64,000 nucleotides of DNA from Branchiostoma floridae (taxonomy: Eukaryota; Chordata; Leptocardii; Amphioxiformes; Branchiostomatidae). This document shows, in pieces, positions 9,173-53,456 of this stretch. Each line of letters opens with the position of its first letter. The first letter of the stretch is position 1. The stretch lies in NCBI RefSeq assembly GCF_000003815.2, contig NW_023365758.1:426679-490678 (forward strand). The letters are read 5' to 3'. The notes below the pieces were generated by a model. It was not told where the DNA came from. It saw nothing but the letters and a program-made list of their open reading frames with translations, and did no database searches. Both the position numbers and the translations under genes were made by a program.

Positions 9173-9396
9173 AGAGCTATGTAATTATGTAATCCAAGTC
9201 ATTTTTTTGTTTTCCAAGTCATTTTTTGTTTACAAAAATGAGGAAGTTGAAATAAATGAATAAATAGTCTTATCTAATGATGATGACTATTGATAATCAC
9301 TTCGTCTATAAGTTGTAACACATACAATAAATATATAAATGCAGTTCTTTGATGCAGTCGTATTTTGTTGCCTGTGTCCGAATCTTGTTAACTGTA
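9173..9396. other. 3' flank of gene 3
   Basis: AT-rich sequence between the LINE fragment and the stop of gene 3. The family 3' UTR word around GTTGACAGT-like sequence is partly kept (about 9360-9390). No other feature is seen. Confidence 0.5.
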
Positions 9397-20423: not shown

Positions 20424-21301
20424 TTAGTTGAGACATGCGGGCGGTTGTGTACTCTCTACATGTTGGGTTTTGCCATGTGCTGTAGCCATGTGCTGGTCTA
20501 CATTGCCTTTCCATAAAGCAGAATAGTCACACTGGTCACACTTATACAGTTTCTCACCAGTATGCATTAACATATGTTGCGAGAGGCTGGACCATAAAGC
20601 CGCACGGTATCCGCACTCACCACACATGTAGGGTTTTGTGTGCGTTCTCATATGTACTTTTAACGAAGACTTGGCGGCCGTCCTAAATTCGCACTCTCCA
20701 CACACGTACCGTTTGTCTTCGGCGTGTTTAGCCATGTGCTGACCCAGGTTGCTTTTTGATGCTCCAGAATAATCGCACTGGTCACACTTGTAGGGTTTCT
20801 CGCCCGTGTGTCTTCTCATGTGTTCCGTTAGGTGAGACTTCATAGCAGTCCTGTATTCGCACTCTCCACACTTGTACGGTTTTTCGCCTGTGTGTTGAGC
20901 CATGTGATATTTAAAAGTACTTTTTTCTGCAGCAGAATAGTCGCACCTGTCACACTTAAAGGGTTTCTCGCCGGTATGTCTCCGCGTGTGTCTCACGAAT
21001 TTATCCTTTTTGGCTGTCGTGAAGTCACATTCCGTACACTCGAAGTGATGGTCCTCGGTACGTTTCACCTTCACCCTGTCGATCTGCTCTTTTCGATCCT
21101 GTGCGGAAGGATGAGAAGAAGATTCTTCTCGTCCACGTTTTTTTGTGTTTTTGTTGATCGGCCATGGGATATGACGAAAGTCCTCCCCTTCTTTGTCCTG
21201 CTGCCTTTCAGTGTCCAAATTCTGGTTGATGTGTGTCTCGTTCCCAGTTTGCACAGTTGGCTGTTCGTCCATAGCAATATCATCGCTTCTCTCGTCCATT
21301 T
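20424..21301 (-). CDS. Second coding exon of compound ZNF gene 6/7 (type II head, 7 fingers)
   Basis: The exon begins at 21301 after CTGTTGTTTCAG and reads AA-ATGGACGAG. There is no promoter module between it and the exon at 22331-23297, and the two exons match in phase (phase 1). I therefore read it as the continuation of that gene; the joined frame (967 + 878 bases) is open to the stop at 20424, about 614 residues. It carries its own type II head (MDERSDDIAMDEQP, an INKNTKKRGREE basic stretch that could be a nuclear localisation signal, then HPSAQ) and seven fingers. Fingers 5 and 6 are both odd-type, joined by a short HTKP linker, which marks loss of an even finger. The last finger shifts frame (HMATAHGKTQ) and ends PPACLN. 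Alternatively its own ATG (21299) starts a separate protein. Confidence 0.7.
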
Positions 21302-22330
21302 CTGAAACAACAGGGAATCATTCAAAATGAAATATAACAATTGGCCGTAGATAACATACTCTGTGACGTTATTATAGTTTCTATGTCGGTTGCGTTGTCT
21401 TATGTTGTGTGTGACAATGTGTTTATATCGCATACAGAACACATCACCTCGACTTATACCAAAAATGTCTCTCTTGGCTGGACTTCGCGAACGAAGATCA
21501 TCTACGGGTTTGGTCCACGTCGCACGGGCAGACCCCTGTGAGAATTTGCTGTTATGCAATTTACGCCAACATAGATTACGTTCTCCAAATAGTAACAAGT
21601 GTTGATTAATGTCAAAGTGTTGGTAAATTTCTCATTAAGATACTGGTGAAAACCGCTCGATGTTAGCATTTACGGATAAGCTGCGGCAAGTCCGAGAGTG
21701 CGGACATGATAGTGCGTTCCCGTCCGTTGACAATGGTGCACAATGGATGGCGCATAAGCAAATTCTCACAGGGCCTATTAAGTGAGTTTACCCGTGCGTC
21801 GGCCACATGCTCGTTGATGACTAGTCATTAACCAAATACGTACTTAAAAGCTAACGTACCTATGGCTGTCAAACAACGTACCTATGGCTGTAGAACAAAT
21901 CCCTGTGCGCATCAACAGCAAAATCAGGGTCTCAAAACAACGATACCAAATGAAACTATTCAAAATTGTCAGGGATACCTTAAACAGCTGGTCCACGACG
22001 CCAGCAGTTGTCGTTACATCACACATAATACCACGAACATCTGTTCAAGTACGTTTAGGGTTTCCTCTATCGCGACAGCTCTTATGTACATTAGACAACA
22101 CATAACTCACCCTATCTGTTTGGAGACAAGCTGATTACGAAACGCCGAAACCACATTGCCTGGTCCACAATACCTAAAATATAGGGGTGATTTCTGAAAT
22201 TATGACATCGATTATGACAACAGCTACCGCGAAAAAAAGAACATGCATCATCGCGCAACTGAGTACAGACGACATGCCAAACCACACACTAGTAGTAAAA
22301 CATTCGATGCAAAGAAAGACGGTTTCTCAC
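21302..22330 (-). other. Predicted phase-1 intron between the coding exons of gene 6/7
   Basis: The donor GTGAG starts at 22330 inside a TGEKP linker codon series (CATACAG|GTGAGAAACC), and the acceptor is TTTCAG at 21302. Zinc-finger similarity stops right at this donor. If unspliced, the frame reads SFFASNVLLLVCG and soon stops. No module, finger or transposon was recognised inside. It contains sequence shared with the equivalent introns at 35955-36694, 47131-47861 and 49197-49645. Confidence 0.65.
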
Positions 22331-23297
22331 CTGTATGTTTTCTCATATGTACGGTTAGGTAAGATCTGTTAGCCGTCTTGAATCCGCACTCTACACACAC
22401 GTAGGGTTTTTCTCCGGTGTGTCTAGCCTTGTGTCGGTCTAAAGCGGTTTTATGTGCAGCAGAATAGTCGCATCGGTCACACTTGTAGGGTTTTTCTCCG
22501 GTGTGTTTAGCTTTGTGTCGGTCTAAATTGCTTTTCTGTGCAGCAGAATAGTCGCACTGGTCACACTTATAAGGTTTCATACCTGTATGTCTTCTCATAT
22601 GTACCTTTAAGGAAGACTTGGCAGTCGTCCTGAATCCGCACTCACCACACATGTACCGTTTGTCTTCGGCGTGTTTAGCCATGTGTTGATCCAGGTTGCT
22701 TTTTGATGCACCAGAATAATCGCACTGGTCACACTTGTAGGGTTTCTCGCCAGTGTGTCTCCGCATATGCTCGGTTAGGTGAGACTTTTGTGCGGTAGAA
22801 TAGTCGCAATAATCACATTTATAAGGCTTCACACCTGTATGTGATCTTATATGCTCGGCTAGGCGGGACCTGTTATTAGTGGAGTATCCGCACTGTCCAC
22901 ACATAAATGGTTTGTTTCCGGCGTGATTGGCAAGATGAATGTCTAGAGAATGTTTATGTGCAGCAGAATAGTCGCACTGGTCACATTTATAGGGTTTCTC
23001 TCCAGTATGCCTCCGAGTGTGTATGGATAGCTTAGTACTTGTGGTTGCCCTATAGTCACATTCCGTACACGCAAAAGGTTTATCCGCAGTACCTTTCATC
23101 GCAAGCCCGTCCGTGTGCTCTGTTACACGCTGTGCTGGAGGATGGTCGGATTCTTCTTCGCACTTTACCTCGCAAGGAATGCCCCCTTCCTTGCTCTGCT
23201 GTCTTCTCGTGTCTAATTTCTCGCTGCTGCCTGTTTCGTTTCGAAAGGGTAAAGCTGGGTGATCATCCACAGCAACCTCGCTGCTTCTCTGGTCCAT
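22331..23297 (-). CDS. First coding exon of compound ZNF gene 6/7 (9 fingers)
   Basis: The start is ATG 23297, two bases after the acceptor CCTTAG. The head is the gene 3 type (MDQRSSEVAVDDHP, HPPAQ). Of nine fingers, numbers 1-3 copy those of gene 3 and numbers 5-6 copy the SGASKSNL...HAEDKR block of the type II genes. Finger 4 is a chimera: it starts as an even type (CDYCDYSTAQKS) and ends as an odd one (HLTEHMRRH), the mark of unequal crossing over or gene conversion within a finger. Fingers 7 and 8 are both even-type. The exon ends at 22331 in CATACAG|GTGAG. Measured from the acceptor (23299) the exon is 969 bases, a multiple of three. Confidence 0.8.
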
Positions 23298-23454
23298 TTC
23301 TAAGGAAAAACAATTCAAAATTGAACGATAAAAGAACATATCCGCACTACTATTATCTATGCTGACCGTGGTGTCCTGAAGCAATTGTACAAATAAAATA
23401 CAACACGCCTATTCGGATCCTAGATCACACATAGATATACAAAAAGATGCACAA

Positions 23455-24523: not shown

Positions 24524-24780
24524 GCCCCCCTCCCCCTTAATAATCGATTACTGTTTTCCCATGAAAGAAGCCGCTGTTTAAGTAGTACTTCAGAATGAAT
24601 TAGCAGACCTGGGGTAGAGCGGTTGTTAACACAGTTCTTACCTTCCGATGATGTTGCTTGACTGCTGAGGCGTTGAATTCTCGTCAAAATTGCGTCAAAC
24701 TGGAAAGGAATGTGGTCGTCCTACAAATCAAGATGGCGGACACGCTGATCGCTGAAGGTGAAAGTTGACATACCTGATTA
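24524..24780 (-). promoter_or_regulatory. ZNF promoter module 6, exon 1 of gene 6/7
   Basis: Minus-strand order: CAGGTA (complement of 24771-24776), a weakened half site (plus AAGGTGAAAG, 24755-24764), AAGATGGCGG (24730-24739), exon 1 end at 24642 (GGAAG|GTAAGAA), and the C-run (24524-24536) with TAATCGATTAC. The intron from here to 23299 is about 1.3 kb. Confidence 0.75.
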
Positions 24781-24860
24781 CCCACTACAAAGTGCCAGTT
24801 TATCGAATGGGGTCATGTGACTCATGTCTATTCTCAAAGCAGATGTTGGGTCGCGGAGAT

Positions 24861-27088: not shown

Positions 27089-27203
27089 AAACAAATGCGA
27101 GTAAACCTATTGCATTGTTTTTATTGTATAAGTTGATTGTAAATCTTGGCGCCATTCAGTTTTTATCTTCAAGGCCGACTTGCTACACGTTTTATCAATC
27201 GTA

Positions 27204-28856
27204 CTTCTCAAAGCTGCAGCCCCTATTATAACTATACCGTTGACCTATGTCTACAACCTCTCTCTCAGTACTGGAACTATACCAACTGAATGGAAGACAG
27301 CCAGGGTGACCCCCATTCACAAAGGTGGTGATCAGGCTGACCCTAACAACTTTAGACCAATCTCTGTACTACCGATTCTGATGAAAATATTTGAGAGGGA
27401 AGTTCATAAAAAATTCCTAGCATATCTCCATATCCATAATATTGACAACGGTAATCTTGTAGGTACAGTATTTCTTGACCTGAAAAAGGCATTCGATTCT
27501 GTTGACCACAATCTCCTTTTGACGAAACTAACATGGATAGGTCTACGTGGTATTGAACTGGCTTGGTTTCAAAGTTACCTTTCAAATAGACATCAAAGAG
27601 TCTCATTAAGTGGTCACACATCCGATAGTGTAGCTATTGATATTGGTGTGCCCCAAGGGTCCATCTTGGGACCCCTTCTCTTCAATATTTTTATTAACGA
27701 CTTACCAGAATCAATCACCAACTGTAAAGTTTCCCTCTATGCGGACGACACAGCAATCTTCTGTGCTAGTAACAACCCAAACCATGTTGAATCCATGTTA
27801 AACGCTGAGCTTTCTCAACTATCTACTTGGTTTCACAATAATCGGTTAACACTCAATATTAGTAAGACCAAGTGGATGTTGATGGGATCTTCCAAAAGAA
27901 TAAACAATTGTCATGACTTAGAAATCAAAATTGATGATATTTGTCTGGAGAGAGTAACATCATACAAATATTTGGGTGTAATCCTTGATTCATGTCTTAC
28001 CTATAGTAACCATGTAGATATTATGCATAGTAAAGCATCTCAGCGCATCGGTTTGCTTAGACGCCTACGACCTTATCTTGGTACAAATGTTGCTAACATG
28101 CTGTATAAGGCCATCGTTTTACCAATATTAGAATACTGCGATGTGATCTGGGAAAACAGCAGCTCTACACTCAAACAACGCCTACAGATTCTTCAGAACA
28201 GGGCCGCCAGGATCATACTGAGGCGGGATCCCAGAGCTAACATCGAAGAGCTGCATCACACACTGCAGTGGAGATATCTACAGGACCGGAGAACTCAACA
28301 CTTGTGCATCATGGTGTGCAAATGTCTGCATGGACTAGCACCTAGCTATCTAATCAATACTTTTAACTATAACAATCAAATACACAGTTATAACACCAGA
28401 CAGGCTCAACAGTTACACAGACCAAAGTACACATCTCGTACAGGCCAACGAACGTTTGCATCCAGAGTGGTTTCTATCTACAATTCCCTTAATCCAACAA
28501 CAACTTCACAAACCACTCTGAATTCATTCAAGCGAGCTTTACAATCTGACCTCTGACCCCTCCGATCAACGACCTCGAATCTGGTTTGAAAATTAGCTTG
28601 ATTTCGTTTATTTATGTACTGTTATGTTCTATTCATATGATTATTGTTGTGAGGAGTTTTGTAATTAATGACTTTGAGTTGTTATTATTTGGGCTAATCG
28701 CATTTAAGTTATTATCCATATTTTGATTTAGTCACGTTTTATGTTATACGATTATTGTTATCTTTATGTTTATGTCCATTATGTTCATTTGGGCTCCCTT
28801 GGAAATCAGTTTTATCAAAACTGTAGGGACTACCCTGAAAGATTAATAAAAAAAAA
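27204..28856 (+). pseudogene. CR1-like LINE fragment with reverse transcriptase (5' truncated, internal deletion)
   Basis: An open frame to 28556 covers reverse transcriptase motifs in order: FRPISVLP; FLDLKKAFDSVDH (first catalytic Asp region); GVPQGSILGPLLFNIFINDLP; and YADD (catalytic). A C-terminal part follows with the pattern common to CR1/L2-like LINEs. The endonuclease and the start of the reverse transcriptase are missing. About 30 residues are also missing in frame between the NFRPISVLP block and FLDLKKAFD. The 3' end runs to an A-rich tail near 28850. It lies antisense in the first intron of gene 8. The matching place in unit 3 (about 41657) is empty. Confidence 0.85.
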
Positions 28857-28972
28857 TTGTTATTCTGTATGTACATCCAATCACTTAAGTATGTTAGAAT
28901 TTAGATTATTTACCTGTTTTCAATCACTTTATTAATTTGATTTTTTTCACTTGCATTTAGCCCCATATGGGC

Positions 28973-28983
28973 ATGAATTTACA
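28973..28983. other. Left target-site duplication of the second LINE fragment
   Basis: ATGAATTTACA occurs here and again at 30117-30127, and once only at the empty site 41782-41792 in unit 3. Confidence 0.85.
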
Positions 28984-30116
28984 GTCTGACGCAAACCTGT
29001 TCGCCGATGACACATCACTCTCAACCAGCAACCGATCCGTCCAACGTGTAGTCAACTCACTCAACACGGACCTACGATCCGTATCCAACTGGCTAACAAA
29101 CTGGAAGCTAGAAGCCAATGAGGACAAATGCAAAATGATGTTCATCACAACCCGCACTCTCCCTAGACCCCCTGCTCCAGTCATACTAGGCGGTAGTACA
29201 CTACAAGTTGTTACCAGCTACAAGCATCTTGGTGTCACCCTGACAAACACACTTTCCTGGTCAAAACACATTGAAACAACCTCCATTAAGTCAAGAAGAT
29301 ATGCTGGCCTACTGTGTGCACTGAGAAAGAAGGTACCAAAGGACATCCTGCTCAGACTGTACAAAACCATCACCAGACCTGGTCTGGAGTATGCTGACGT
29401 CGTCTGGGCGGGACTCACCAAGCGCGACGAAACAAAACTGGAATCAGTTCAATACCAAACTGCCAGACTGATCAGCGGACAACATGGACTCCCGTACCCG
29501 TCATACCAATCTCTGTACACCCAGCTATCCCTTCCATCACTGCAGTTCCGACGACAATTCCACACCGCTGTCACCCTGTACAAGCTCCTCAACGGTCACT
29601 GCCCTCCACACCTTCAAACCCTGATACCCAGAACCCGTGCGTCTGCTACTCAACTGAGTCACGTTACTCCCTCAGGAACAGCGACCACCTGACATCTGAA
29701 CTCACTAAGTCCACCAGAGGCCAGAGAACATTCATCTACAGAGCAACAGCACTCTGGAACACTCTCCCTACTGCTACTAGTACTCGCACAGCCACCTCCA
29801 CTGCTTCCTTCAAAAGAAAACTGTGGGAATGTCTAGGCAACCCTTACGCATGGTAAATTAGTCATACACGTGTATATACAGACCCTGACCTCTCACTGCA
29901 AATATTGTTGTCGATGATATGATGTTAATGTATACTCCATTTTAGATGATATGTAAGTTGCCCTACACCATGTACATATAAATGTTCTTTTTTAATATAA
30001 TAATATTTATGTATTGTTTATGTGTTTGTCAGCAGGGCTAGCCCTTTGTAATAGCCATAGGCTAGTTGGGCAGCCCTGGCTGTGTGTTCGTTGCAGCCAA
30101 ACCAATAAATAAATAA
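28984..30116 (+). pseudogene. Second CR1/L2-like LINE fragment, 5' truncated, with TSD
   Basis: It begins inside the reverse transcriptase at the catalytic box (NLFADDTSLS) and runs through the thumb and C-terminal region (for example YKHLGVTLTNTLSWSKHI and RPGLEYADVVWAG). The frame shifts by one near 29660 and continues to FKRKLWECLGNP and a stop near 29856. A 3' UTR with AATA repeats ends at 30116. The 11-base target duplication and the intact empty site in unit 3 (41782-41792) define the ends exactly. Confidence 0.9.
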
Positions 30117-35076: not shown

Positions 35077-35954
35077 TTAGTTGAGACATGCGGGCGGTTG
35101 TGTACTCTCTACATGTTGGGTTCTGCCATGTGCTGTAGCCATGTGCTGGTCTACATTGCCTTTCCATAAAGCAGAATAGTCGCACTGGTCACACTTATAC
35201 AGTTTCTCACCAGTATGCATTAACATATGTTGCGAGAGGCTGGACCATAAAGCCGCACGGTATCCGCACTCACCACACATGTAGGGTTTTGTGTGCGTTC
35301 TCATATGTACTTTTAAGGAAGACTTGGCAGCCGTCCTGAATCCGCACTCTTCACACACGTACCGTTTGTCTTCGGCGTGTTTAGCCATGTGCTGACCCAG
35401 GTTGCTTTTTGATGCTCCAGAATAATCGCACTGGTCACACTTGTAGGGTTTCTCGCCCTTGTGTCTTCTCATATGTTCCGTTAGGTGAGACTTCATAGCA
35501 GTCCTGTATTCGCACTCTCCACACTTGTACGGTTTTTCGCCTGTGTGTTGAGCCATGTGATATTTAAAAGTACTTTTTTCTGCAGCAGAATAGTCGCACC
35601 TGTCACACTTAAAGGGTTTCTCGCCGGTATGTCTCCGAGTGTGTCTCACGAATTTATCCTTTTTGGCTGTCGTGAAGTCACATTCCGTACACTCGAAGTG
35701 ATGGTCCTCGGTACGTTTCACCTTCACCCTGTCGATCTGCTCTTTTCGATCCTGTGCGGAAGGATGAGAAGAAGATTCTTCTCGTCCACGTTTTTTGGTG
35801 TTTTTGTTGATCGGCCATGGGATATGACGAAAGTCCTCCCCTTCTTTGTCCTGCTGCCTTTCAGTGTCCAAATTTTGGTTGATGCTTGTCTCCTTCCTAG
35901 TTTGTACGGCTTGCTGTTCGTCCATAGCAATGTCACAGCTTCTCTCGTCCATTT
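35077..35954 (-). CDS. Second coding exon of compound ZNF gene 6'/7' (type II head, 7 fingers)
   Basis: The unit 3 copy of 20424-21301, with the same exon start (TTTCAG|AA-ATGGACGAG at 35954), same length (878 bases to the stop), same seven fingers, same missing even finger and same frameshifted end (PPACLN). The head differs at scattered residues (QAVQTRKETSINQN). The basic KNTKKRGREE stretch is kept. Joined to the exon at 36695-37661 it gives an open frame of 614 residues. Confidence 0.7.
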
Positions 35955-36694
35955 CTGAAACAACAGGGAGTCATTCAAAATGAAATATAACAATTGACCG
36001 TAGGTAACATACTCTGTAACGTTATCATAGTTTCTATGTCGGTTGTGTTGTCTTCTGTTGTGTGTGACAATGTAGGTGTTGTGTTTATATCGCATACAGA
36101 ACACATCACCTCGACTTATACCAAAAACATATCTCTTGGCTGGACTTCGCGAACGAAGATCATCTAGGGGTTTGGCCCACGTCGGCCACATGCTCGTTGA
36201 CGGCCAGTCAGTCACCAAATACGTACTTTAAAGCTAACGTACCTATTGCTGTCCAATGCAAAACAAAATCCTGTGCGCATTAACATCAAAATCAGGGTCT
36301 GAAAAGAACGACACCAAATGAAACTATTCGAAATTGTCAGGAATACCTCAAGCAGCTGGTCTACGACGCCAGCTGTTGTCGTTATATCAAACATAATACC
36401 ACGAACATCTGTTCAATTACGTTTAGGGTTTCCTCTATCGCAACAGCTGTTATGTATATCAGGCAGCACATAACCCACCCTATCTGGTAGGAGACAAGCT
36501 GATTACGAAACACCGAAACCACATTGCCTGGTCCACAATACCTAAAAGGGGTGATTTCTGAAATTATGACATCGAGTATAACAACAGATACCGCGAAAAA
36601 AAGAACGTGCATCATCGCGCAACTGAGTGCAGACGACATGCCAAACCACACACTAGTAGTAAAACAATCGATGCAAAGAAAGACGGTTTCTCAC
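35955..36694 (-). other. Predicted phase-1 intron of gene 6'/7'
   Basis: Donor CATACAG|GTGAG with the intron starting at 36694; acceptor TTTCAG at 35955. It is shorter than the unit 2 intron (740 against 1029 bases), the missing part corresponding to about 21530-21790. No promoter module inside. Confidence 0.65.
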
Positions 36695-37661
36695 CTGTAT
36701 GTTTTCTCATATGTACGCTCAGGTAAGATCTGTTAGCCGTCCTGAATCCGCACTCTACACACAAGTAGGGTTTTTCTCCGGTGTGTCTAGCCTTGTGTCG
36801 GTCTAAAGCGATTTTATGTGCAGCAGAATAGTCGCATCGGTCACACTTGTAGGGTTTTTCTCCGGTGTGTTTAGCCTTGTGTCGGTCTAAATTGCTTTTC
36901 TGTGCAGCAGAATAGTCGCACTGGTCACACTTATAAGGTTTCACACCTGTATGTCTTCTCATATGTACCTTTAAGGAAGACTTGGCAGTCGTCCTGAATC
37001 CGCACTCTCCACACACGTACCGTTTGTCTTCGGCGTGTTTAGCCATGTGTTGACCCAGGTTGCTTTTTGATGCACCAGAATAATCACACTGGTCACACTT
37101 GTAGGGTTTCTCGCCAGTGTGTCTCCGCATATGCTCGGTTAAGTGAGACTTTTGTGCGGTAGAATAGTCGCAATAATCACATTTATAAGGCTTCACACCT
37201 GTATGTGATCTTATATGCTCGGCTAGGCGGGACCTGTTATTAGTGGAGTATCCGCACTGTCCACACATAAATGGTTTGTTTCCGGCGTGATTGGCAAGAT
37301 GAATGTTTAGAGAATGTTTATGTGCAGCAGAATAGTCGCACTGGTCACATTTGTAGGGTTTCTCTCCAGTATGCCTCCGAGTGTGTATGGATAGCTTAGT
37401 ACTTGTGGTTGCCCTATAGTCACATTCCGTACACGCAAAAGGTTTATCCGCAGTACCTTTCATCGCAAGCCCGTCCGTGTGCTCTGTTACACCCTGTGCT
37501 GGAGGATGGTCGGATTCTTCTTCGCACTTTACCTCGCAAGGAATGCCCCCTTCCTTGCTCTGCTGTCTTCTCGTGTCTAATTTCTCGCTGCTGCCTGTTT
37601 CGTTTCGAAAGGGTACAGCTGGGTGATCATCCACAGCAACCTCGCTGCTTCTCTGGTCCAT
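36695..37661 (-). CDS. First coding exon of compound ZNF gene 6'/7' (9 fingers)
   Basis: Copy of 22331-23297: ATG 37661 after acceptor CCTTAG, gene-3-type head, and nine fingers with the same chimeric finger 4 (CDYCDYSTAQKS...HLTEHMRRH). The exon from acceptor to donor is 969 bases, as in unit 2. It differs by a few residues (for example LNIHLANH against LDIHLANH, GQHMAKH against DQHMAKH). Confidence 0.8.
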
Positions 37662-37799
37662 TTCTAAGGAAAAAAAAATCAAAATTGAACGATAAAAGAA
37701 CATATCCGCACTACTATTATCTATGCTGACCGTGGTGTCCTGAAGCAATTGTACAAATAAAATATTCGGATCCTAGATCACACATAGATATACAAAAAG

Positions 37800-38524: not shown

Positions 38525-38829
38525 GCCCCCCTCCCCCTTAAACTCTACTCTACTCTACTCTACTCTACTCTACTCTTAATAATCGATTACTATTTTCCCA
38601 GGAAGGAAGCAGCTGTTTCTGAAGTATTTCAGAATGAATTAGCACACCCAGGGTAGAACGGTAGTTAACACAGTTCTTACCTACCGATTGATGACGTTAC
38701 TTGATTGCTGAGGTGTTGAATTCTTCTGAAAATGCGTCAAACTGGAAAGGAATGTTGTCGTCCGACAAATCAAGATGGCGGACACGCTGATCGCTGAAGG
38801 TCAAAGGTGAAAGTTGGCATACCTGATTA
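38525..38829 (-). promoter_or_regulatory. ZNF promoter module 9, exon 1 of gene 6'/7'
   Basis: Minus-strand order: CAGGTA (complement of 38819-38824), AAGGTCAAAGGTGA on plus (38797-38810), a direct repeat spaced by one base, AAGATGGCGG (38772-38781), exon 1 end at 38681 (GGTAG|GTAAGAA), and the C-run (38525-38537). A CTACT pentamer tract (38541-38575) separates the C-run from its usual TAATCGATTAC partner. Confidence 0.75.
38541..38576. repeat. CTACT pentanucleotide repeat
   Basis: About seven tandem CTACT units inserted between the intronic C-run and the ATCGAT element of module 9. Absent from module 6. Confidence 0.9.
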
Positions 38830-38866
38830 CCCACTACAAAGTGCCAGTTTATCGAATTGGGCCATG

Positions 38867-43675: not shown

Positions 43676-44278
43676 TTCTGTTTTAACCTATAAAAACTTT
43701 AACACTGCGCTCAAACAACGCTTTCAAAACAATTCTTGGCTTGTCTTCAAAACGTATGGACTACAACATCTGTGTATGACTTTCCACATACACGGTGCTT
43801 TCTTGTTATATCATTCTATCACCCTCTGTGCACATAGATGGCATGCATAAACAACACATTGCAAGCAACAAAGTTGGTTTTATTTTTCCTTCTGATTTGA
43901 ATTATGAGATTGCTATGATAAAAGTAATCGAAATAGATAAAACACATAAGCGTTTGCTAATATGTAACAACGAAATAGAGTAAAAAGTCAATCACATTGT
44001 GTTATATTAAGCTCCTTGGTTATATTGACGTTTGCCTAGCTATAAATAAACCTATATTTTCAGCTAAAATATCAGTATCAATTCTTTCCTACAGAAGTCA
44101 TACATACTTTTATATAGGAAATTGTCATCAGATTTTGACATGCAATATCTATATTTGCAATAGTAACATTCAATGGAATTAGTTAATAGATATGGTATAT
44201 ACAAGGGGCGTTCACAATGTTGGGGGCCTCAACGGAAAGTGGTAAATCTCACAGTGCATAGTAGGGGTGGGTACCGGT
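43676..44278. other. 3' flank of the unit 4 chain gene
   Basis: Matches 18780-19340 and 33530-34110. A minus-strand AATAAA at 43883-43878. The left end of a hAT-like MITE (TAGGGGTGGGTACCGG, from about 44263) runs into the gap. Confidence 0.55.
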
Positions 44279-44378
44279 NNNNNNNNNNNNNNNNNNNNNN
44301 NNNNNNNNNNNNNNNNNNNNNNNNNNNNNNNNNNNNNNNNNNNNNNNNNNNNNNNNNNNNNNNNNNNNNNNNNNNNNN
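44279..44378. other. Assembly gap (100 N)
   Basis: Unknown sequence. The gap falls inside the hAT-like MITE whose complete copy is at 34100-34346. Confidence 0.98.
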
Positions 44379-44820
44379 AGCAAAAAAGTGGGTTTTATTT
44401 TCCCTTCGGATTGAAATTAGGAAATGCCTTGGTTAAAGGTTTTCGAAATGGTAAAACCCCTTAGGGTTTTGTTAATTTGTACCCCCGAAATGGGGTAAAA
44501 AGTCACCCCCCTTGGGTTATTTAAACCCCCTGGGTAAAATGGCCTTTTCCCCACCTAAAAAAAACCCTTTTTTTTCGGCAAAAAATCCGGTTCAATTTTT
44601 TTCCCACGAAAGTCAAACATCTTTTTATAAAGAAAATTGCCACCAAATTTTGCCACCCAAATTTTTTTTTTCCAATGGTACCTTCCAAGGGAATTGGTTA
44701 AAAGATTGGGAAAAACCAGGGGGGTTTCCAAATTTGGGGGGCCCCAAGGAAAAGGGGAAAATCCCCCAGCCCATAAAAGGGGGGGGTCCCGGGGTAAAAG
44801 GATTTTTGCCCCCCCCCCCC
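44379..44820. other. Probable corrupted duplicate of 43864-44280 (assembly artefact)
   Basis: Read side by side, this stretch follows 43864-44280 word for word, but with bases replaced by runs (for example AGCAAAAAAGTGGGTTTTATTT against AGCAACAAAGTTGGTTTTATTT). It is full of G, C, A and T homopolymers, as in the poor tail of a Sanger read. It should not be annotated. The open frames here are meaningless. Confidence 0.8.
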
Positions 44821-44826
44821 CCCCCC

Positions 44827-45880
44827 CGCGGAATCACTAGCGATCTCGCCCCCCCCGGGGCGAAATCACTAGCGATCTCGCCCTCCCCGGCTAGTGATCT
44901 CGCCCCCCTACCTCGCCCCCCTTTAACGATTTCGCCCCCCCCAAAAAAAACGGGTTTACATGACATTTTAGAAGTTGATTGGTATAAATCACAAAATGCA
45001 GTTTCAGAATGATATAAGTACACGAGTTTGATACATAACTCCATTCATAGTATCAATATTAATGTAATTACATGGTAATAAGATAGTTGAACTTGTTTCA
45101 GGCAAGGAGGGTTGGGTCCCTTGTATTCCCATTATTGCATATACCTGAGTCTTGACATAAGATGTATTTCATTGTATTCACCTGTCCTCAAGCAACCTAT
45201 ATATCTCCAATATGAAGTCTCTACCATGAAGTGACCACAAAAGAACTATGTAATGTGTTTATTAATTATGCAAATATTAGGTATTAATTAGAATAACGCA
45301 CATCTTGGTATATGCACCTGGCCAAGGGATATCTTCACCTCCAACATGACTGTTTTTTCTAGTATTTAGGAAATGATGCATTTACCCGTGTTTCTTAAGA
45401 CTGGTACTTTACCAGTGTTTGTGTAGCATTTAGGCTATATCAACTATATCAACTTGCGCGTAGATAGTGTTTATAATGAGAAACTATTATTCACGTGTGT
45501 TTTTGTTAGTGCTTTGGAAATGTTTCCAGCACAAGAAAGAAAACACTGTGACAAATTGAAAACATATAGCTGACGTATTCCGTACCATAGACGGTGTTGA
45601 TTTATACGTTGGCAGTAGCACTGTTTTTATGCCACCTCAGCTGCAAAAATGGTCTTTTCATTTCAATGTCAGGTTTTCACCGAACAATATAGTATCGACT
45701 TTCGAGGTATGACATCTTACCATGATAATAAGGTGCCATATAGGTACAAGATAACACGCCATATACGTTACTCCCCAGGTACCCAGGTACCAGGTATCGC
45801 ACCTGTAATATGTAGTAACCAGCTGCTCTTTGGGGGGGGGGGGGGCGAAAACGCTAAAGGGGGGCGAAAACGCTAGTGGG
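44827..45880. mobile_element. Possible DNA transposon with CTAGCGATTTCGCCCCC-type ends
   Basis: The left side carries several direct copies of CACTAGCGATCTCGCCCCCC (about 44835-44940). The right side carries the complement type (GGGGGGCGAAAACGCTAGTG, about 45830-45878). Between them lie about 880 bases of ordinary, AT-rich sequence without a long open frame. Both ends are partly in poor-quality sequence, so the limits are uncertain and no target duplication could be read. Confidence 0.5.
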
Positions 45881-46387
45881 GGGGGGGGGGGGGGGGTGGA
45901 AAAACCCCCCGGACCAAAATGTTTTTTCTTGTTCAAACGGGCCCAAAAACCGGACCTGAAAAAAATCAATGGGGCGGATTTGGGGGACCCAAATACATTG
46001 CCAGGGTTCCCCTTTTGGGGGGCTTTCCCCAAGGGAAAAAAAACAAGTAAATGCCGTAAAGGAAAAAGGGTCCCAAATCCCCCCCAAATTTTTTTTTAAA
46101 AAAAACCCCCCCCAAAAACCCCCCTTCTGCTAAAAACGGCGAAACCATCTATCAAAAAAAAAGTTCTTGTTCAACCGGGCCCAAAACCCCGACAAAAAAA
46201 TCCCCTTTGCAGAAATGGCCCCTTTGGAAGGGGGCCCCAAAGTTTTCCAAAGACCCGGACCAAATTTTTGATCCCCCCCCCCCCCCCCTGGAGGGCTTCC
46301 CCCCCGGGGGTTTAGCCCTGTATCGGTCTAAAGCCCCCCCTAACCCCGTTGGGTATCCCCCCCGGTCCCATTTATATGGGTTCCAGC
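45881..46387. other. Probable corrupted sequence (poor base calls) over a ZNF 3' region
   Basis: The segment 45900-46080 shadows the MITE region 19330-19480, and 46300-46387 shadows the decayed finger tail near 20330-20400, both with added homopolymer runs. It probably covers the true 3' flank of the chain gene, but the base calls are not usable. Confidence 0.75.
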
Positions 46388-46487
46388 NNNNNNNNNNNNN
46401 NNNNNNNNNNNNNNNNNNNNNNNNNNNNNNNNNNNNNNNNNNNNNNNNNNNNNNNNNNNNNNNNNNNNNNNNNNNNNNNNNNNNNNN
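46388..46487. other. Assembly gap (100 N)
   Basis: Unknown sequence. It interrupts the last visible coding exon of the chain gene, in the fifth finger of that exon. Confidence 0.98.
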
Positions 46488-47130
46488 CTCATATGTACCT
46501 TTAGGGAAGACTTGGTGCCGGGCCTGAATTCGCACTCTCCGCACACGTACCGTTTGTCTTCGGCGTGTTTAGCCATGTGCTGACCCAGGTTGCTTTTTGA
46601 TGCGCCAGAATAATCGCACTGGTCACACTTGTAGGGTTTTTCGCCCTTGTGTCTTCTCATATGTTCCGTTAGGTGAGACTTCATAGCAGTCCTGTATTCG
46701 CACTCTCCACACTTGTACGGTTTTTCGCCTGTGTGTTGAGCCATGTGATATTTAAAAGTACTTTTTTCTGCAGCAGAATAGTCGCACCTGTCACATTTAT
46801 AGGGTTTCTCGCCGGTATGTCTCCGCGTGTGTCTCACGAATTTATCCTTTTTGGTTGTCGTGTAGCTACATTCCGTACACTCGAAGCGATGGTCCTCAGT
46901 ACGTTTCACCTTACTCCTGTCAGTCTGCTCTTTTCCACCCTGTGCGGGAGATTCTTCTCGTCCCCGTTTTTTTGTGTTTTTGTTGATCGGCCATGGGGTA
47001 TGACGAAAGTCCTCCCCTTCTTTGTCCTGCTGCCTTTCAGTGTCCAAATTTTGGTTGATGCTTGTCTCCTTCCTAGTTTGTACGGCTTGCTGTTCGTTCA
47101 TAGCAATGTCACAGCTTCTCTCGTCCATTT
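46488..47130 (-). CDS. Fourth coding exon of the unit 4 chain gene (type II head, 4+ fingers, partial)
   Basis: The exon begins at 47130 after CTGTTGTTTCAG, reading AA-ATGGACGAG. Type II head with KNTKKRGREE and a shortened HPSAQ region (ESPAQGG), then four complete fingers and part of a fifth before the gap. Fingers 2-5 carry the shared block AEKSTFKYHM / AMKSHLTEHM / SGASKSNLGQHM / HAEDKR. The last bases before the gap (EFRPGTKSS) look affected by poor calls. Probably the terminal coding exon, by analogy with 20424 and 35077. Confidence 0.65.
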
Positions 47131-47861
47131 CTGAAACAACAGGGAGTCATTCAAAATGAAATATAACAATTGACCGTAGGTAACATACTCTGTAACGTTA
47201 TTATGGTTTCTATGTCGGTTGTGTTGTCTTCTGTTGTGCGTGACAATGTGTTTATATCGCATACAGAACACATCACCTCGACTTATACCAAAAACATATC
47301 TCTTGGCTGGACTTCACGAACGAAGATCATCTAGGGGTTTGGTCCACGTCGGCCACATGCTCGTTGATGGCCAGTCAGTCACCAAATACGTACTTTAAAG
47401 CTAACGTACCTATTGCTGTCAAATGCAAAACAAAATCCTGTGCGCATCAACATCAAAATCAGGGTCTGAAAAGATCGACGCCAAATGAAATAACTCAAAA
47501 TTGTCAGGGATACCTCAAACAGCTGGTCCAAGACGCCAGCTGTTGTCGTTACATCACACATAATACCACGAACATCTAGTCAATTACGTTCAGGGATTCC
47601 TCTATCACGACAGCTATGGTGTACATTAGGCAACATATAACCCACCCTATCTGCTTGGAAACAAGCTGATTACGAAATGCCAAAACCGCAGTGGTCCACA
47701 ATACCTAAAATATAGGGGTGATTTCTGAAATTATGACATCGATTATAACAACAGCTACTGCGACAAAAAGGAAATGCATCATCGCGCAACTGAGTACAGA
47801 CGACATGCCAAACCACACACTAGTAGTAAAACATTCGATGCAAAGAAAGACGGTTTCTCAC
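47131..47861 (-). other. Predicted phase-1 intron 4 of the chain gene
   Basis: Donor CATACAG|GTGAG (intron from 47861), acceptor TTTCAG (47131), 731 bases, homologous to 35955-36694. No promoter module. Confidence 0.65.
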
Positions 47862-49196
47862 CTGTATGTTTCCTCATATGTACGGTTAGGCCCGACGTGT
47901 CAGCCGACCTGTATCCGCACTCACCGCACATGTAGGGTTTCTCTTCGGTGTGTTGAGCCATGTGTTGGTTTAAATTGCTTTTCACTGCAGCAGAATAGTC
48001 GCACTGGTCACACTTGTAAGGTTTCTCACCTGTGTGTGATCTCATATGTACGGTTAAATAAGACCTGTCAGCCGTCCTGTATCCACACTCTCCACACATG
48101 TAGGGTTTTTCTCCGCTGTGTGTAGTCATGTGTCGGTCTACTTGGCTTTTCCTCGCAGCAGAATAACCGCACTGGTCACACTTATAAGGTTTCACACCTG
48201 TATGTGTTCTCATATGTACTTTTAAGGAAGACTTGGCGGCCGTCCTGAATTCGCACTCTCCGCACACGTACCGTTTGTCTTCGGCGTGTTTAGCCATGTG
48301 CTGATCCAGGTTGCTTTTTGATGCGCCAGAATAATCGCACTGGTCACACTTGTAGGGCTTCTCGCCCTTGTGTCTTCTCATATGTTCCGTTAGGTGAGAC
48401 TTGATAGCCGTCCTGTATTCACACTCTCCACACTTGTACGGTTTTTCGCCGGTGTGTTGAGCCATGTGATAGTTAAAATTTCTTTTTCGTGTTGCAGCAT
48501 AGTCGCACTGGTCACACTGTAAAAGTTTCACACCTGTGTGTCTTCTCATATGTACTTTTAAGGAAGACTTGGCGGCCGTCCTGAATCCGCACTCTCCGCA
48601 CACGTACCGTTTGTCTGCGTGTTTAACCATGTGCTGATCTAGGTTGCTTTTTGATGCGCCAGAATAATCGCACTGCTCACACTTGTAGGGTTTTTCGCCC
48701 GTGTGTCTCCTCATATGTTCCGATAGGTGAGACTTCATAGCCGTTCTGTATCCGCACTCACCACACATGTAGGGTTTCTCACCCGTGTGTTGAGCCATGT
48801 GATATCTAAAAGTACTTTTTCCTGCAGTGGAATAGTCGCACCTGTCACATTTATAGGGTTTCTCGACGGTATGTCTCCGAGTGTGTATCACGAATGTATC
48901 CTTTTTGGTTGTCGTGAAGTCACATTCCGTACACTCGAAGCGATGGTCCTCGGTACGTTTCACCTTAATCCTATCGGTCTGCTCTTTTCCACCCTGTGCG
49001 GAAGGATGACAAGATTCTTCTTCTCGTCCACGTTTTTTTGTGTTTTTGTTGATCGGCCATGGGATATGACGAAAGTCCTCCCCTTCTTTGTCCTGCTGCC
49101 TTTCAGTGTCCAAATTCTGGTTGGTGCTTGCCTCCTTCCTAGTTTGTACGGCTTGCTGTTCGTCCATAGCAATGTCACAGCTTCTCTCGTCCAATT
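47862..49196 (-). CDS. Third coding exon of the chain gene (type II head without ATG, 13 fingers)
   Basis: The exon runs from 49196 (TTTCAG|AA-TTGGACGAG) to the donor at 47862, 1335 bases, exactly 445 codons. The family ATG is TTG here, which fits use only as an internal exon (joined reading E-L-D-E-R). The next Met is ten residues on (MDEQQAVQ). Type II head with KNTKKRGREEE and HPSAQ, then 13 alternating fingers. Fingers 3-5 and 7-9 are two copies of the same three-finger block (SHLxEHM / SGASKSNLDQHM / YVCGEC), so the exon grew by internal duplication. A one-residue-short linker (HADKR) occurs in finger 4. It ends at the linker donor CATACAG|GTGAG; read on, it stops after SFFASNVLLLVCG and some 15 residues. 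Confidence 0.75.
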
Positions 49197-49645
49197 CTGA
49201 AACAACAGGGAATCATTCGAAATGATATATAGCAATTGACCGTAGGTAACATACTCTGTGACGTTATTATGGTTTCTATGTCGGTTGTGTTGTTTTCTTT
49301 GGTGTCCACGACGCCAGCTGTTGTCGTTACATCACACATAATACCACAAATATCTATTCAATTACGTTTAGGGTTTCCTCTATCGCGACAGCTGTTGTGT
49401 ACATTAGACAACACATAACTCACCCTATCTGTTTGGAGACAAGCTGATTGCGAAACTGCGAAACCACATTGCCTGGTCCACAATGACAAATTTATAGGGG
49501 TGATTTCTGAAATTATGACCACGCCTTATAACCACAGATACCGCGAAAAAAAGAACGTGCATCATCGCACAACTAAGTACAGACGACATGGCAAACCACA
49601 TACTTGTAGTGAAAACATTCCATGCAAAGAAAGACGGTTTCTCAC
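49197..49645 (-). other. Predicted phase-1 intron 3 of the chain gene
   Basis: Donor at 49645, acceptor TTTCAG ending 49197, 449 bases. Homologous to the other linker-donor introns; no promoter module. Confidence 0.65.
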
Positions 49646-50479
49646 CTGTATGTTTTCTCATATGTACGGTTAGGTGAGACCTGACAGCCGTCCTGTATCC
49701 GCACTCACCGCACACGTAGGGTTTATCTCCGGTGTGTTGAACCACGTGTCGGTCTAAATTACCTTTCCATGCAGTAGAATAGTCGCACTGGTCACAACTA
49801 TAAGGTTTCACACGTGTATGTGTTCTCATATGTCTGGTTAAAGAAGACCTGGCAGCCGTCCTGAATCCGCACTCTCCGCACACGTACCGTTTGTCTTCCG
49901 CGTGTTTAGCCATGTGTTGATCTAGGTTACTTTTTGATGCGCCAGAATAATCGCACTGGTCACACTTGTAGGGTTTCTCGCCCGTGTGTCTTCTCATATG
50001 TTCCGATAGGTGAGACTTCATAGCCGTCCTGTATTCGCACTCTCCACACTTGTACGGTTTTTCGCCGGTGTGTTGAGCCATGTGATATTTAAAAGTACTT
50101 TTTTCTGCTGCAGAATAGTCGCACCTGTCACATTTATAGGGTTTCTCGACGGTATGTCTCCGAGTGTGTATCACGAATGTATCCTTTTTGGTTGTCGTGA
50201 AGTCACATTCCGTACACTCGAAGTGATGGTCCTCGGTACGTTTCACCTTAATCCTGTCGGTCTGCTCTTTTCCACCCTGTGCGGAAGGATGACAAGATTC
50301 TTCTTCTTCTCCACGTTCTTTGGTGTTTTTGTTGATCGGCCATGGGACATGAAGAAAATCGCCCCTTTCCTTATCTTGCTGACTTTCCATGTCCAAATTC
50401 TCGTTGGTGTGTGTCTCGTTCCCAGTTTGCAGGGTTGGCTGATCTTCCATAGCAATATCATCGCTTCTCTCGTCCATTT
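49646..50479 (-). CDS. Second coding exon of the chain gene (type II head, 7 fingers)
   Basis: From 50479 (TTTCAG|AA-ATGGACGAG) to the donor at 49646, 834 bases = 278 codons. Head MDERSDDIAMEDQP, with the basic stretch weakened (KNTKERGEEEE), then HPSAQ and seven alternating fingers. The first linker is HTVEKP. It could also start translation itself at ATG 50477. Confidence 0.75.
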
Positions 50480-50920
50480 CTGAAACAACAGGGAATCATT
50501 CGAAATGAAATATAGCAATTGGCCGTAGGTAACATACTCTGTGACGTTATTATGGTTTCTATGTCGGTTGTGTTGTTTTCTTTGGTGTCCACGACGCCAG
50601 CTGTTGTCGTTACATCACACATAATACCACAAATATCTATTCAATCACGTTTAGGGTTTCCTCTATCGCGACAGCTGTTGTGTACAACACATAACTCACC
50701 CTGTCTGTTTGGAAACAAGCTGATTGCGAAACTGCGAAACCACATTGCCTGGTCCACAATACCAAAAATATAGGGGTGATTTCTGAAATTATGACATCGC
50801 TTATAACAACAGATACCGCGAAAAAAAGAACGTGCATCATCGCACAACTAAGTACAGACGACATGGCAAACCACATACTAGTAGTAAAAACATTCCATGC
50901 AAAGAAAGACGGTTTCTCAC
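50480..50920 (-). other. Predicted phase-1 intron 2 of the chain gene
   Basis: Donor at 50920, acceptor TTTCAG ending 50480, 441 bases, and close to intron 3 in sequence. The coding frame is open for about 95 codons into it, so a retained-intron form would add a long non-finger tail. Confidence 0.65.
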
Positions 50921-51749
50921 CTGTATGTTTTCTCATATGTACGGTTAGGTGAGACCTGACAGCCGTCCTGTATCCGCACTCACCGCACACGTAGGGTTTC
51001 TCTCCGGTGTGTTGAACCACGTGTCCGTCTAAATTACCTTTCCATGCAGTAGAATAGTCGCACTGGTCACACCTATAAGGTTTCACAACTGTATGTGTTC
51101 TCATATGTCTGGTTAAAGAAGACTTGGCGGCCGTCCTGAATCCGCATTCTCCGCACACGTACCGTTTTTCTTCCGCGTGTTTAGCCATGTGCTGATCCAG
51201 GTTGCTTTTTGATGCGCCAGAATAATCGCACTGGTCACACTTGTAGGGTTTCTCGCCCGTGTGTCTTCTCATATGTTCCGATAGGTGAGACTTCATAGCC
51301 GTCCTGTATTCGCACTCTCCACACTTGTACGGTTTTTCGCCTGTGTGTTGAGCCATGTGATATTTAAAAGTACTTTTTTCTGCAGCAGAATAGTCGCACC
51401 TGTCACACTTAAAGGGTTTCTCCCCGGTATGTGTCCGCGTGTGCCTCACGAATTTATCCTTTTTGGTTGTCGTGTAGCTACATTCCGTACACTCAAAGCG
51501 ATGGTCCTCAGCGCGTTTCACCTTATTCCTGTCGGTCTGCTCTTTTCCATCCTGCGCGGAAGGATGGCAAGATTCTTCTTCTTCGCGGTTTTTGGTGTTT
51601 TTGTTGATCGGCCATGGGACATGACGAAAATCGGCCCTTTCCTTATCTTGCTGACTTTCCATGTCCAGATTCTCGTTGGGGTGTGTCTCGTTCCCAGTTT
51701 GTACGGTTGGCTGTTCGTCCATAGCAAGCTCACTGCTTCTCTTGTCCAT
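50921..51749 (-). CDS. First coding exon of the chain gene (type II head, 7 fingers)
   Basis: ATG 51749, two bases after acceptor CCTGTTTCAG (exon from 51751, 831 bases = 277 codons). Head MDKRSSELAMDEQP...INKNTKNREEEE, so the basic stretch is altered, then HPSAQ. Seven alternating fingers follow, the same set as the second exon with changes mainly in the helix and linker residues. It ends at the linker donor CATACAG|GTGAG. Joined in phase to the next three exons, the chain protein would exceed 1200 residues with at least 31 fingers and four heads. Confidence 0.78.
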
Positions 51750-51819
51750 TTCTGAAACAGGAAGAAAGGAAATCATCCAAAATGAAATATAAAAAACTTT
51801 CTCTATCTGAATATCTATG

Positions 51820-51823
<4 letters not shown>

Positions 51824-51862
<39 letters not shown>
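51824..51862. repeat. TA microsatellite
   Basis: (TA)n tract of about 20 units in the first intron of the chain gene, just upstream of its first coding exon. Confidence 0.95.
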
Positions 51863-51872
<10 letters not shown>

Positions 51873-52326
51873 CAGAACACATCACATCGATTTATACATA
51901 CGTACTTAAAAGCTAACGTACCTATTACTGTCAAATATGATAATGTAAAACAGAATTCTGTACACATCAACAGCAAAATCAGCGTCTCAAAAGAACGACA
52001 TCAAATGAAAAATATTCAAAATTTTCAGGGATCCGGAACAGTTGGTCCAGCTGTTGTCGTTACATCACACATAATACGACGAACATCTGTTCAATTACGC
52101 CTGAGTCAAACATCTGTTTATGAATTCCTTTTCCGCGCCAGCTGTTCTGCGCCATCTGTTGTTTCGCGTCCGCTTATCCGCGTCAGCATAGCCCACTCTA
52201 TCGGTTTTGACACAAGCTGATTACCATACGTCGAGACCACGTTGGCTGTTCCACAATACCGAAAATATAGGGGTGATTTCCGCAATTATTACATCGATTA
52301 TAACAACAGCTAAGATAGGTGCGAGC

Positions 52327-52384
52327 ACTCAAGACAGACCGAATGCAATACTCTGTCGACGGAGGTAATCGGTCTGTCTTGAGT
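52327..52384. repeat. Hairpin (ACTCAAGACAGACCGA arms)
   Basis: Perfect 16-base inverted arms 52327-52342 and 52369-52384, loop 26 bases. It lies in the first intron of the chain gene and may be a small foldback element. Confidence 0.8.
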
Positions 52385-52766
52385 ACTGTAACTAAGACAT
52401 TTGATGCAAAGAAATACGTCATTTTATCTCGCAAGCAGGCAATGAATCATATCATATCATATCAATATCATCGATTTTCAAAATTCAATGAATAAAACAA
52501 AACTACAAATCCTCTCCATGCATCCAGTTTGGCATAACTGGACAAAGACTCTTTCCTTCAATATATATTACAACAGTGGCAAATCCTCTTGCAGAAAATT
52601 GCTAAGGTATCCCCAACCCACAGCACACAGACACACACGTGTACACAAACAAGCCCCCTCCTCACGACAAGGTACGAATTAATCGTGATGAACAATTTAC
52701 CCCCACCCCTTCGGATAGATAATCCACTGTTTTAAAGACTGTACTGTGGCACAGATTTCTCTTATT

Positions 52767-53094
52767 GGGCCGTTCCAAAAAAAAAAAAAAAATAGAGGGG
52801 GGGTTGATTACACCCCAATCTGTATACCCCCTAAGTCCTATGGTCCTAGCTTCCAACCCCCTAAGTCCAAGAGTCCTAACGCTAAAACCCCCTAGGTCCA
52901 GCGGTTCTAATGCCTCCAACCCCCTAAGTCCAAGAGTCCTGACGCTTCAAACCCCCTAAGTCCAAGAGTCCTAACGCTTCAAACCCCCGAAGTCCAAGAG
53001 TCCTAGGGATTTCCATCCCCCTAAGTCCAGAGTCCAGTCCTGTGTAATCAACCCCCCCCCCCCCCCTCTGTTTTTTTTTTTTTTGGAACGGCCC
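52767..53094. mobile_element. MITE with GGGCCGTTCC ends and internal tandem repeats
   Basis: GGGCCGTTCC plus an A-run at 52767, and the exact complement with a T-run ending at 53094. A second inverted pair lies inside (GGGTTGATTACA / TGTAATCAACCC). ATT flanks both ends, a possible 3-base target, which with GGGCC ends would suggest PIF/Harbinger; this is tentative. The inside is a tandem array of about 32-base units containing CCCCTAAGTCCAAGAGTCCT. It is inserted in the first intron of the chain gene, close to exon 1. Confidence 0.8.
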
Positions 53095-53258
53095 ATTGTC
53101 CCAACAGCTAGTTTACATCGTGATCCCTGTACATCTAACGTTACATAGATCTATATATAGACAAAGCAAAGCCCCGTTTGTACACATCGATTTCTAAAGA
53201 CGTAAAGTACCGAAGAATTAACAAATTTAGAGTAAACAAGAAGTTAACTTTGTCTTAC

Positions 53259-53430
53259 CTTTCGCTTGAGGGTGCTGCCGAATTTTTGATGCGGTGTGTA
53301 ATGGTCTTGAAATGGCGTCAAGTTGGAGACAAAGAAATGTGCGACGCTCCGACAAATCAAAATGGCCGACTATCCTTTGCAAAATGACCTTTTCTGTGGA
53401 GGTCGAAGGTCAAAAGTTAAATACCTGATA
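53259..53430 (-). promoter_or_regulatory. ZNF promoter module 12, exon 1 of the chain gene
   Basis: Minus-strand order: CAGGTA (complement of 53422-53428), AGGTCGAAGGTCA (plus 53400-53412), AAAATGGCCG (53359-53368; one base off the usual GGCGG), and exon 1 end at 53259 (GAAAG|GTAAGACA). The intronic C-run is poorly kept (around 53120-53190), though CATCGATTTC is present. It is the only module between 43.7 and 58.9 kb, so it should drive all four chain exons. Confidence 0.7.
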
Positions 53431-53456
53431 CTACAATACTGCGGATAACATATAAC

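Follow-up and report, generated by a model that had tools for sequence, protein, structure and literature searches.

A probable compound zinc-finger gene in a Branchiostoma floridae gene cluster, with finger linkers as candidate 5' splice sites

INTRODUCTION

The polydactyl C2H2 zinc-finger gene clusters of animals, of which the mammalian KRAB-ZNF clusters are an example, are tandem arrays of genes that encode an N-terminal head followed by long arrays of TGEKP-linked fingers, and they undergo rapid duplication and finger turnover. The cluster that we describe here lies on contig NW_023365758.1 of the amphioxus Branchiostoma floridae (RefSeq assembly GCF_000003815.2), in a stretch of 64,000 nucleotides (nt) at positions 426,679 to 490,678 of the forward strand, which we call the window. 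Like the KRAB-ZNF clusters, it is tandem, combines a head with TGEKP-linked finger arrays and shows fast duplication and finger turnover. It differs from them in that the head has no Pfam match and in that, at a locus that we designate gene C, the whole unit of head plus fingers is repeated as exons (E1 to E4) under one copy of a 5' noncoding exon, hereafter the module.

Two other kinds of gene offer a comparison for such a row of exons. In genes with tandem exon duplication and symmetric phase 1-1 exons, the serial copies have lengths divisible by three and the same phase, and skipping a copy keeps the frame. The homologous exons of gene C are also symmetric in phase, and their joined frame is open; unlike in those genes, the repeated unit is nearly the whole coding region of a gene, its 3' border would be a reused coding linker, and the intron between copies is a piece of an intron of the 5' untranslated region. 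In the clustered protocadherins, variable exons that each have their own promoter are joined to constant exons. The row of large homologous exons in gene C resembles that arrangement, but E2 to E4 have no module (other promoter types were not searched for) and no constant exon was seen: E4, the candidate for a shared downstream exon, is itself a head with fingers.

A 5' splice site within the linker between two C2H2 fingers has been described for WT1, in which KTS is inserted after the glycine between fingers 3 and 4 (PMC11807054). The WT1 site changes the linker by three residues, whereas the linker described here would lead to a whole new head-plus-fingers exon. A miniature inverted-repeat transposable element (MITE), LanceletTn-2, lies in a gained intron of PRHOXNB, as cited in PMC5802833. 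Unlike that element, the repeat in the introns of gene C supplies neither splice site and is also present in the ordinary 5' intron of the gene family, and would hence predate the proposed fusion. The main text of PMC9673378, on amphioxus duplications, does not contain the term "zinc finger," and the titles and opening lines of abstracts among the matches listed in the literature hold no description of compound or multi-head zinc-finger genes of this kind.

RESULTS

Four head-plus-fingers exons form one open frame

The layout of gene C is known here from DNA alone. Coordinates are positions in the window, and the genes lie on the minus strand. Four homologous coding exons follow one another in a row:

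50921-51751, minus strand: E1, 831 nt, head and 7 fingers, ending in the linker donor CAG^GTGAGA (the caret marks the exon-intron border)
49646-50479, minus strand: E2, 834 nt, head and 7 fingers, no module upstream
47862-49196, minus strand: E3, 1335 nt, head and 13 fingers, no module upstream
46488-47130, minus strand: E4, head and 4 complete fingers as far as a 100-N gap

All four share the acceptor border TTTCAG^AA(A/T)TG, and E1 to E3 end in the donor border CATACAG^GTGAGAAACC. Every junction is in phase 1, and the joined frame stays open for 1,213 codons, with 31 C2H2 fingers by pattern (7+7+13+4) up to the gap at 46388-46487 that cuts E4. A first-pass annotation of the same DNA had proposed four homologous exons with these coordinates and borders, lengths of 831, 834 and 1335 nt that are multiples of three, phase 1 junctions with an open joined frame, and at least 31 fingers, all of which were borne out when the window was reread. 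The Pfam families zf-C2H2 and zf-H2C2_2 were matched on E1 and E3, identifying the fingers as C2H2 zinc fingers. The heads of E1 and E2 and three heads from other genes had no Pfam match at E<=1, and thus no known effector domain such as KRAB was recognized in these five. An internal linker of E3 at 48030 carries the identical donor string in phase, 168 nt before the end of the exon; it is a possible alternative splice site, use of which would drop two fingers.

The window contains two further compound genes, A (23299-20424) and B (37663-35077), with two coding exons each, which were absent from the earlier annotation:

22331-23299, minus strand: first coding exon of gene A, head and 9 fingers, linker donor
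20424-21301, minus strand: terminal exon of gene A, head, 7 fingers and stop, no module upstream
36695-37663, minus strand: first coding exon of gene B, head and 9 fingers, linker donor
35077-35954, minus strand: terminal exon of gene B, head, 7 fingers and stop, no module upstream

Both exon pairs join in frame through to the stop, giving 16 fingers per gene. The first exons of A and B are chimeras, with another head type and its first fingers followed by fingers of the E type, as if they had recombined within the finger array. When the head and first finger of E2 were used as the query, the other five exons of the E type were 74-82% identical, while other head-covering matches reached at most 57% and short finger-only matches up to 62% (150 of 4,372 candidates scored). 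Duplication within one gene lineage would fit these values.

E4 resembles the terminal exons of A and B, a likeness that the earlier annotation did not include, and it is probably the terminal exon of gene C, because its segment 46688-46488 is 94% identical over 201 nt to 35500-35300 in the terminal exon of the sister gene B. The minus strand of 53462-45263, which includes the 100-N gap, contains neither AATAAA nor ATTAAA. A candidate polyadenylation [poly(A)] signal stands farther on:

43879-43884, minus strand: AATAAA, in surroundings shared with the 3' ends of genes A (18976) and B (33729)

The downstream exons have no module of their own

Modules were located with a profile built from eight window copies of the 5' noncoding exon, those of genes A, B and C being among the seeds; the reversed window, which served as the control, gave a best E value of 0.31. 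The modules of the compound genes are as follows:

53244-53440, minus strand: module of gene C, profile E 4e-40 (seed copy), exon end AAG^GTAAG at 53259
38661-38837, minus strand: module of gene B, profile E 3e-53 (seed copy)
24623-24789, minus strand: module of gene A, profile E 1e-47 (seed copy)

A module precedes 13 of the 18 finger open reading frames (ORFs) in the window, 8 as seeds and 5 newly found by the profile, and none was found at E values up to 10 before E2, E3, E4 or the second exons of A and B. The contig that holds the window has 653,616 bases in a 513-Mb genome, and the 313 kb of it that were read (1-200000 and 426679-540000) contain 64 head matches and 64 modules. A module lies within 6 kb of 57 of these heads. 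The other seven are a spurious repeat match (150073), a head behind an N gap (167384), and the five downstream exons, which have no gap upstream. The first two of the seven were dropped before the 57 were compared with the 5. In the 313 kb, the exons with a TGEKPSFFA tail (n=5) are exactly the direct predecessors of the five module-less heads, a pairing with odds of one in C(62,5), about 6.5 million, if the cases were independent, and rather one strong association given their common descent.

We infer that the module is the promoter, and by its profile, a proxy, E1 to E4 stand behind a single one. The module contains the motif GCCATTTTG, which we take to be a putative YY1-like motif. In the part of the contig that was read, the conserved module is matched 62 times at E<1e-10 and stands before nearly every finger gene; 40 of these copies carry AG^GTRAG close to their end.

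A single module would also be expected if the exons were alternatives, in protocadherin-like or cassette use, with one 5' exon spliced to one coding exon and the transcript either ending there or jumping to E4, to give a protein of one or two heads. E1 to E3 are symmetric; because their lengths are multiples of three and their phase is 1, exon-skipped forms are also in frame, and 8 of 8 tested combinations ending in E4 stay open. The heads, moreover, keep their start codon or, in E3, where it is TTG, have an in-frame Met nearby. Such a choice among exons nevertheless seems unlikely to us, as the introns behind E1 to E3 (i1 to i3) contain no AATAAA or ATTAAA and hence no obvious 3' ends (a weak point, P 0.12 for five introns together), and E4 is the only exon that could be shared.

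The introns between the coding exons resemble the 5' intron of the family

The intron between module and head, intron 0, and the introns between the coding exons, which we call hybrid introns, have the following layout:

51752-53258, minus strand: intron 0 of gene C, unique flank 52418-52393, dispersed repeat ~52366-51862
50480-50920, minus strand: i1, hybrid intron of linker remnant, distal intron 0 and dispersed repeat
49197-49645, minus strand: i2, hybrid intron, 95% identical to i1
47131-47861, minus strand: i3, hybrid intron, repeat 47820-47164
21302-22330, minus strand: hybrid intron of gene A, repeat 22289-21335
35955-36694, minus strand: hybrid intron of gene B, repeat 36653-35988

A hybrid intron begins with the linker remnant GTGAGAAAC and continues with about 30 nt of intron-0-like sequence, the dispersed repeat, and a similar 3' flank with the acceptor. 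The tail of i3 matches intron 0 of gene C at 52418 from the tenth intron base onward (23 of 26 nt). None of the five tails was equaled in score by any of 1000 shuffles, and when the window was scanned with the i3 tail in 600-nt segments on both strands, only the five tails and the 52418 site reached scores >=28. Over 382-572 aligned nt, intron 0 is 84-86% identical to four hybrid introns (i2 not among them), and in the 3' flank it scored highest among the nine compared for every one of the five hybrids (31-44). Past the ninth intron base, the sequence is thus the distal part of the family's intron 0 and not coding by origin. Because the tail matches intron 0 and the repeat, the open frame past the donor is intron sequence read in translation, and the exon-derived part ends at most 10 nt after the donor.

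The dispersed repeat, which also sits in intron 0, was found at 35 places outside this contig among the 40 scored of 1,362 candidates, and it is putatively MITE-like, because its ends look like imperfect inverted repeats in aligned fragments. The same stretch is missing from i1 and i2, and the two introns are 95% identical, which suggests that E2 arose late as a copy of the E1 unit. Two other descriptions of the hybrid introns were discarded: that of intron 0 with an unrelated 104-nt tail, since the tail matches distal intron 0 and the repeat, and that of a small exon between the inner TTTCAG and GTGAGT, which by eye contains a stop in E3 and A and a frameshift in B.

The tail is also where independent genes would end. 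If E2 to E4 had unrecognized promoters of their own in the introns, their proteins would terminate in the translated tail GEKPSFFA..., and the open frame does continue past the donor, for 27 codons in E3, A and B and for longer in E1 and E2; the heads are intact, and the linker donor scores low in splice-site matrices trained on the cluster. We regard this explanation as very unlikely. There is no module match at E values up to 10, though 57 other heads in the 313 kb have one, the tail is made of intron 0 and repeat sequence, and in E1 and E2 it is thrown out of frame by a 1-nt difference; the absence of a poly(A) signal adds a weak argument.

Genes A and B, elsewhere in the window, have the same hybrid intron, which speaks against a misjoining of haplotypes or tandem copies in a row, which might be suspected from the gaps and poor sequence at 44.3-46.5 kb and from the 93-97% identity of the paralogues. 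The sequence from 53.4 to 46.5 kb is free of gaps, and a misjoin of alleles would be expected to put intron 0, not a hybrid intron, before E2, so that we consider an assembly artifact exceedingly improbable.

The exons show signs of coding constraint

The ratio of nonsynonymous to synonymous substitution rates (dN/dS) is 0.25-0.41 in 15 of 15 pairs of six exons (E1 to E4 plus the terminal exons of A and B); these values are pairwise averages with no significance level attached, and in pairs that involve A or B some of the last fingers compared are unlike. Exons differ in length by multiples of three in 14 of 14 cases (15 pairs, first 640 nt), while for introns 22 of 22 differences are not such multiples (10 pairs, first 330 nt), with identity alike in the two sets (0.89-0.97 in exons and 0.87-0.96 in introns). 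By eye, these amount to about three distinct indel events in the exons and about five in the introns; the contrast is real but small in number.

These data bear on whether only the first exon of each gene is expressed, with the downstream exons being recent dead copies. Broken genes are indeed common, in that 9 of the 57 module-bearing heads keep fewer than five fingers in an open frame (with one of the nine lying where the stretch that was read ends), and E2 is young, since i1 and i2 are 95% identical. However, the downstream exons keep an open frame (in E4 up to the gap) and are constrained in pairwise comparison, whereas introns of similar divergence carry frame-breaking indels, and we hold it to be highly improbable that these exons are dead.

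Linker spelling and head acceptors account for phase and borders

The linker T-G-E-K, when spelled ACA GGT GAG AAA, reads CAG^GTGAGA, which is a donor string. There are 97 H[TSKA]GEK linkers in the 18 finger ORFs, 5 terminal and 92 internal, and the window's finger arrays hold 8 internal matches to [CA]AG^GTRAG, always in a linker and always in phase 1. Among the other head exons in the 313 kb, 54 of 56 show an AG exactly 2 nt ahead of the head start, though the preceding exon is noncoding; this set leaves out the five downstream exons, the spurious 150073 and the partial heads 524500 and 459414 (start not located), and it keeps 167384. The linker spelling and the common AG before heads make a shared phase and matching borders all but automatic. 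Neither the phase nor the donor string exceeds chance, and the linker donor string by itself is no evidence of splicing. Two observations do exceed chance: module-less heads are paired with linker-donor exons, and the post-donor sequence derives from an intron. The first-pass annotation had argued for a one-promoter compound gene from matching borders and the same phase. Those features are real but follow largely from common descent and linker spelling; its conclusion stands as the best reading for other reasons, namely, the module-less exons, the coding constraint and the intron-0-derived intron.

The positions within 10 nt behind a donor-like linker make up 0.6% of the finger arrays (8x10/13,485). 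A break within this distance suits a rearrangement that may have been kept because the linker could act as a 5' splice site.

Several observations weigh against a compound gene that arose in this way. The donor string is unspecific, AG^GTGAG being present in 8 of 92 internal linkers when 2.7 are expected from base and codon use, and microhomology could have placed the break at the linker. The five fusion cases share one origin and so are not five independent proofs. In the cluster-trained splice-site matrices, the linker donor scores 7.6, below all 40 module donors used (9.7-16.8), and the five downstream acceptors rank 48th to 53rd of 54. The donor matrix came from 40 of the 62 modules, the other 22 being without AG^GTRAG near the end; we think that these matrices mostly measure relatedness, and we give them little weight. 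The 3' flank of the hybrid introns is the weakest link, since it is unspecific, with gene 41001 close behind intron 0 (23-35). The heads (first 75 codons) are less constrained than whole exons, with dN/dS of 0.35-0.90. The absence of poly(A) signals from the five hybrid introns is not significant by shuffles (P 0.12), and the signal is present in 5, 6 and 10 of 12 other ORFs within 441, 731 and 1029 nt of the stop. Finally, the lost ATG of E3 was rejected as a sign of internal use because four module-bearing heads have also lost the expected start codon (contig positions 27665, 142182, 182199 and 488047).

Predicted contact residues recur between exons

In the classical model, the contact residues of a finger are those at -1, 2, 3 and 6. 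The contact quartets of E1 are KDKR, ESTY, MSHE, SSNQ, ASSR, WGNG and VSHV, and near-identical series are found in E2, in E3 (fingers 2-5, partly again 7-9) and in E4 as far as it was read, with ESTY-MSHE-SSNQ-ASS[R/V] or close variants recurring among the predicted quartets. With this recurrence of near-identical predicted quartets, a compound protein would have four or five reading blocks much like one another, and its likely function is to bind, multivalently, similar DNA sites that occur in repeated copies.

Other elements of the window

Within 16791-41001, the gene order 26930, 23408+21317, 17861 recurs as 41001, 37772+35970, 32651, about 14-15 kb apart, as a segmental duplication; traces of a third copy of the segment lie near 43.7 kb. 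Beside E4, the stretch 44279-46487 is of poor sequence with two N gaps, and parts of it match the 3' region of gene B. Reverse-transcriptase reading frames stand between the finger genes (27132-28553, plus strand; 28961-29689, plus strand; 7942-9198, minus strand), with Pfam RVT_1 matches on the three of 9e-32, of 1e-6 (just under the cutoff), and one weak match.

DISCUSSION

The reading that we favor, and think probable, is that gene C is a compound gene that arose by promoter-less fusion, with a finger linker reused as a 5' splice site. An ordinary gene of the cluster consists of a 5' noncoding exon with the presumed promoter, intron 0 and a single coding exon for head and fingers. In one gene lineage, a partial tandem duplication, or a deletion between neighbors, would have joined a finger linker to the middle of the next copy's intron 0, thereby removing the promoter, the 5' exon and the 5' splice site of that copy. 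The linker ACA GGT GAG AAA would then have taken over as the 5' splice site, and the native head acceptor TTTCAG^AA-ATG, 2 nt before the start, would join the phase 1 linker donor in frame. Further duplication would have led to three compound genes, two with two coding exons and one with four. In gene C, a transcript from the module at 53.3 kb, spliced through E1 to E4, would encode as many as four heads and no fewer than 31 fingers in one protein.

The cluster as a whole might be "fusion-ready," because 8 of 92 internal linkers are latent phase 1 donors and 54 of 56 head exons have phase 1 acceptors. A cut after a donor-like linker that landed in a neighbor's intron 0 might then yield an in-frame multi-head protein at once, with the symmetric exons allowing combinatorial isoforms of 1-4 heads and, counting E4 up to the gap, 4-31 fingers. 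Proteins of this sort could bind arrays of repeated sites cooperatively. We offer this extension tentatively and would not bet on it.

If the compound gene is real, a codon-level accident, in which a linker happens to spell a splice donor, lets zinc-finger genes fuse through promoter loss, and several heads and very long finger arrays can be gained without new coding sequence. The locus would offer a specific model, open to test, of how tandem gene arrays give rise to compound transcription factors.

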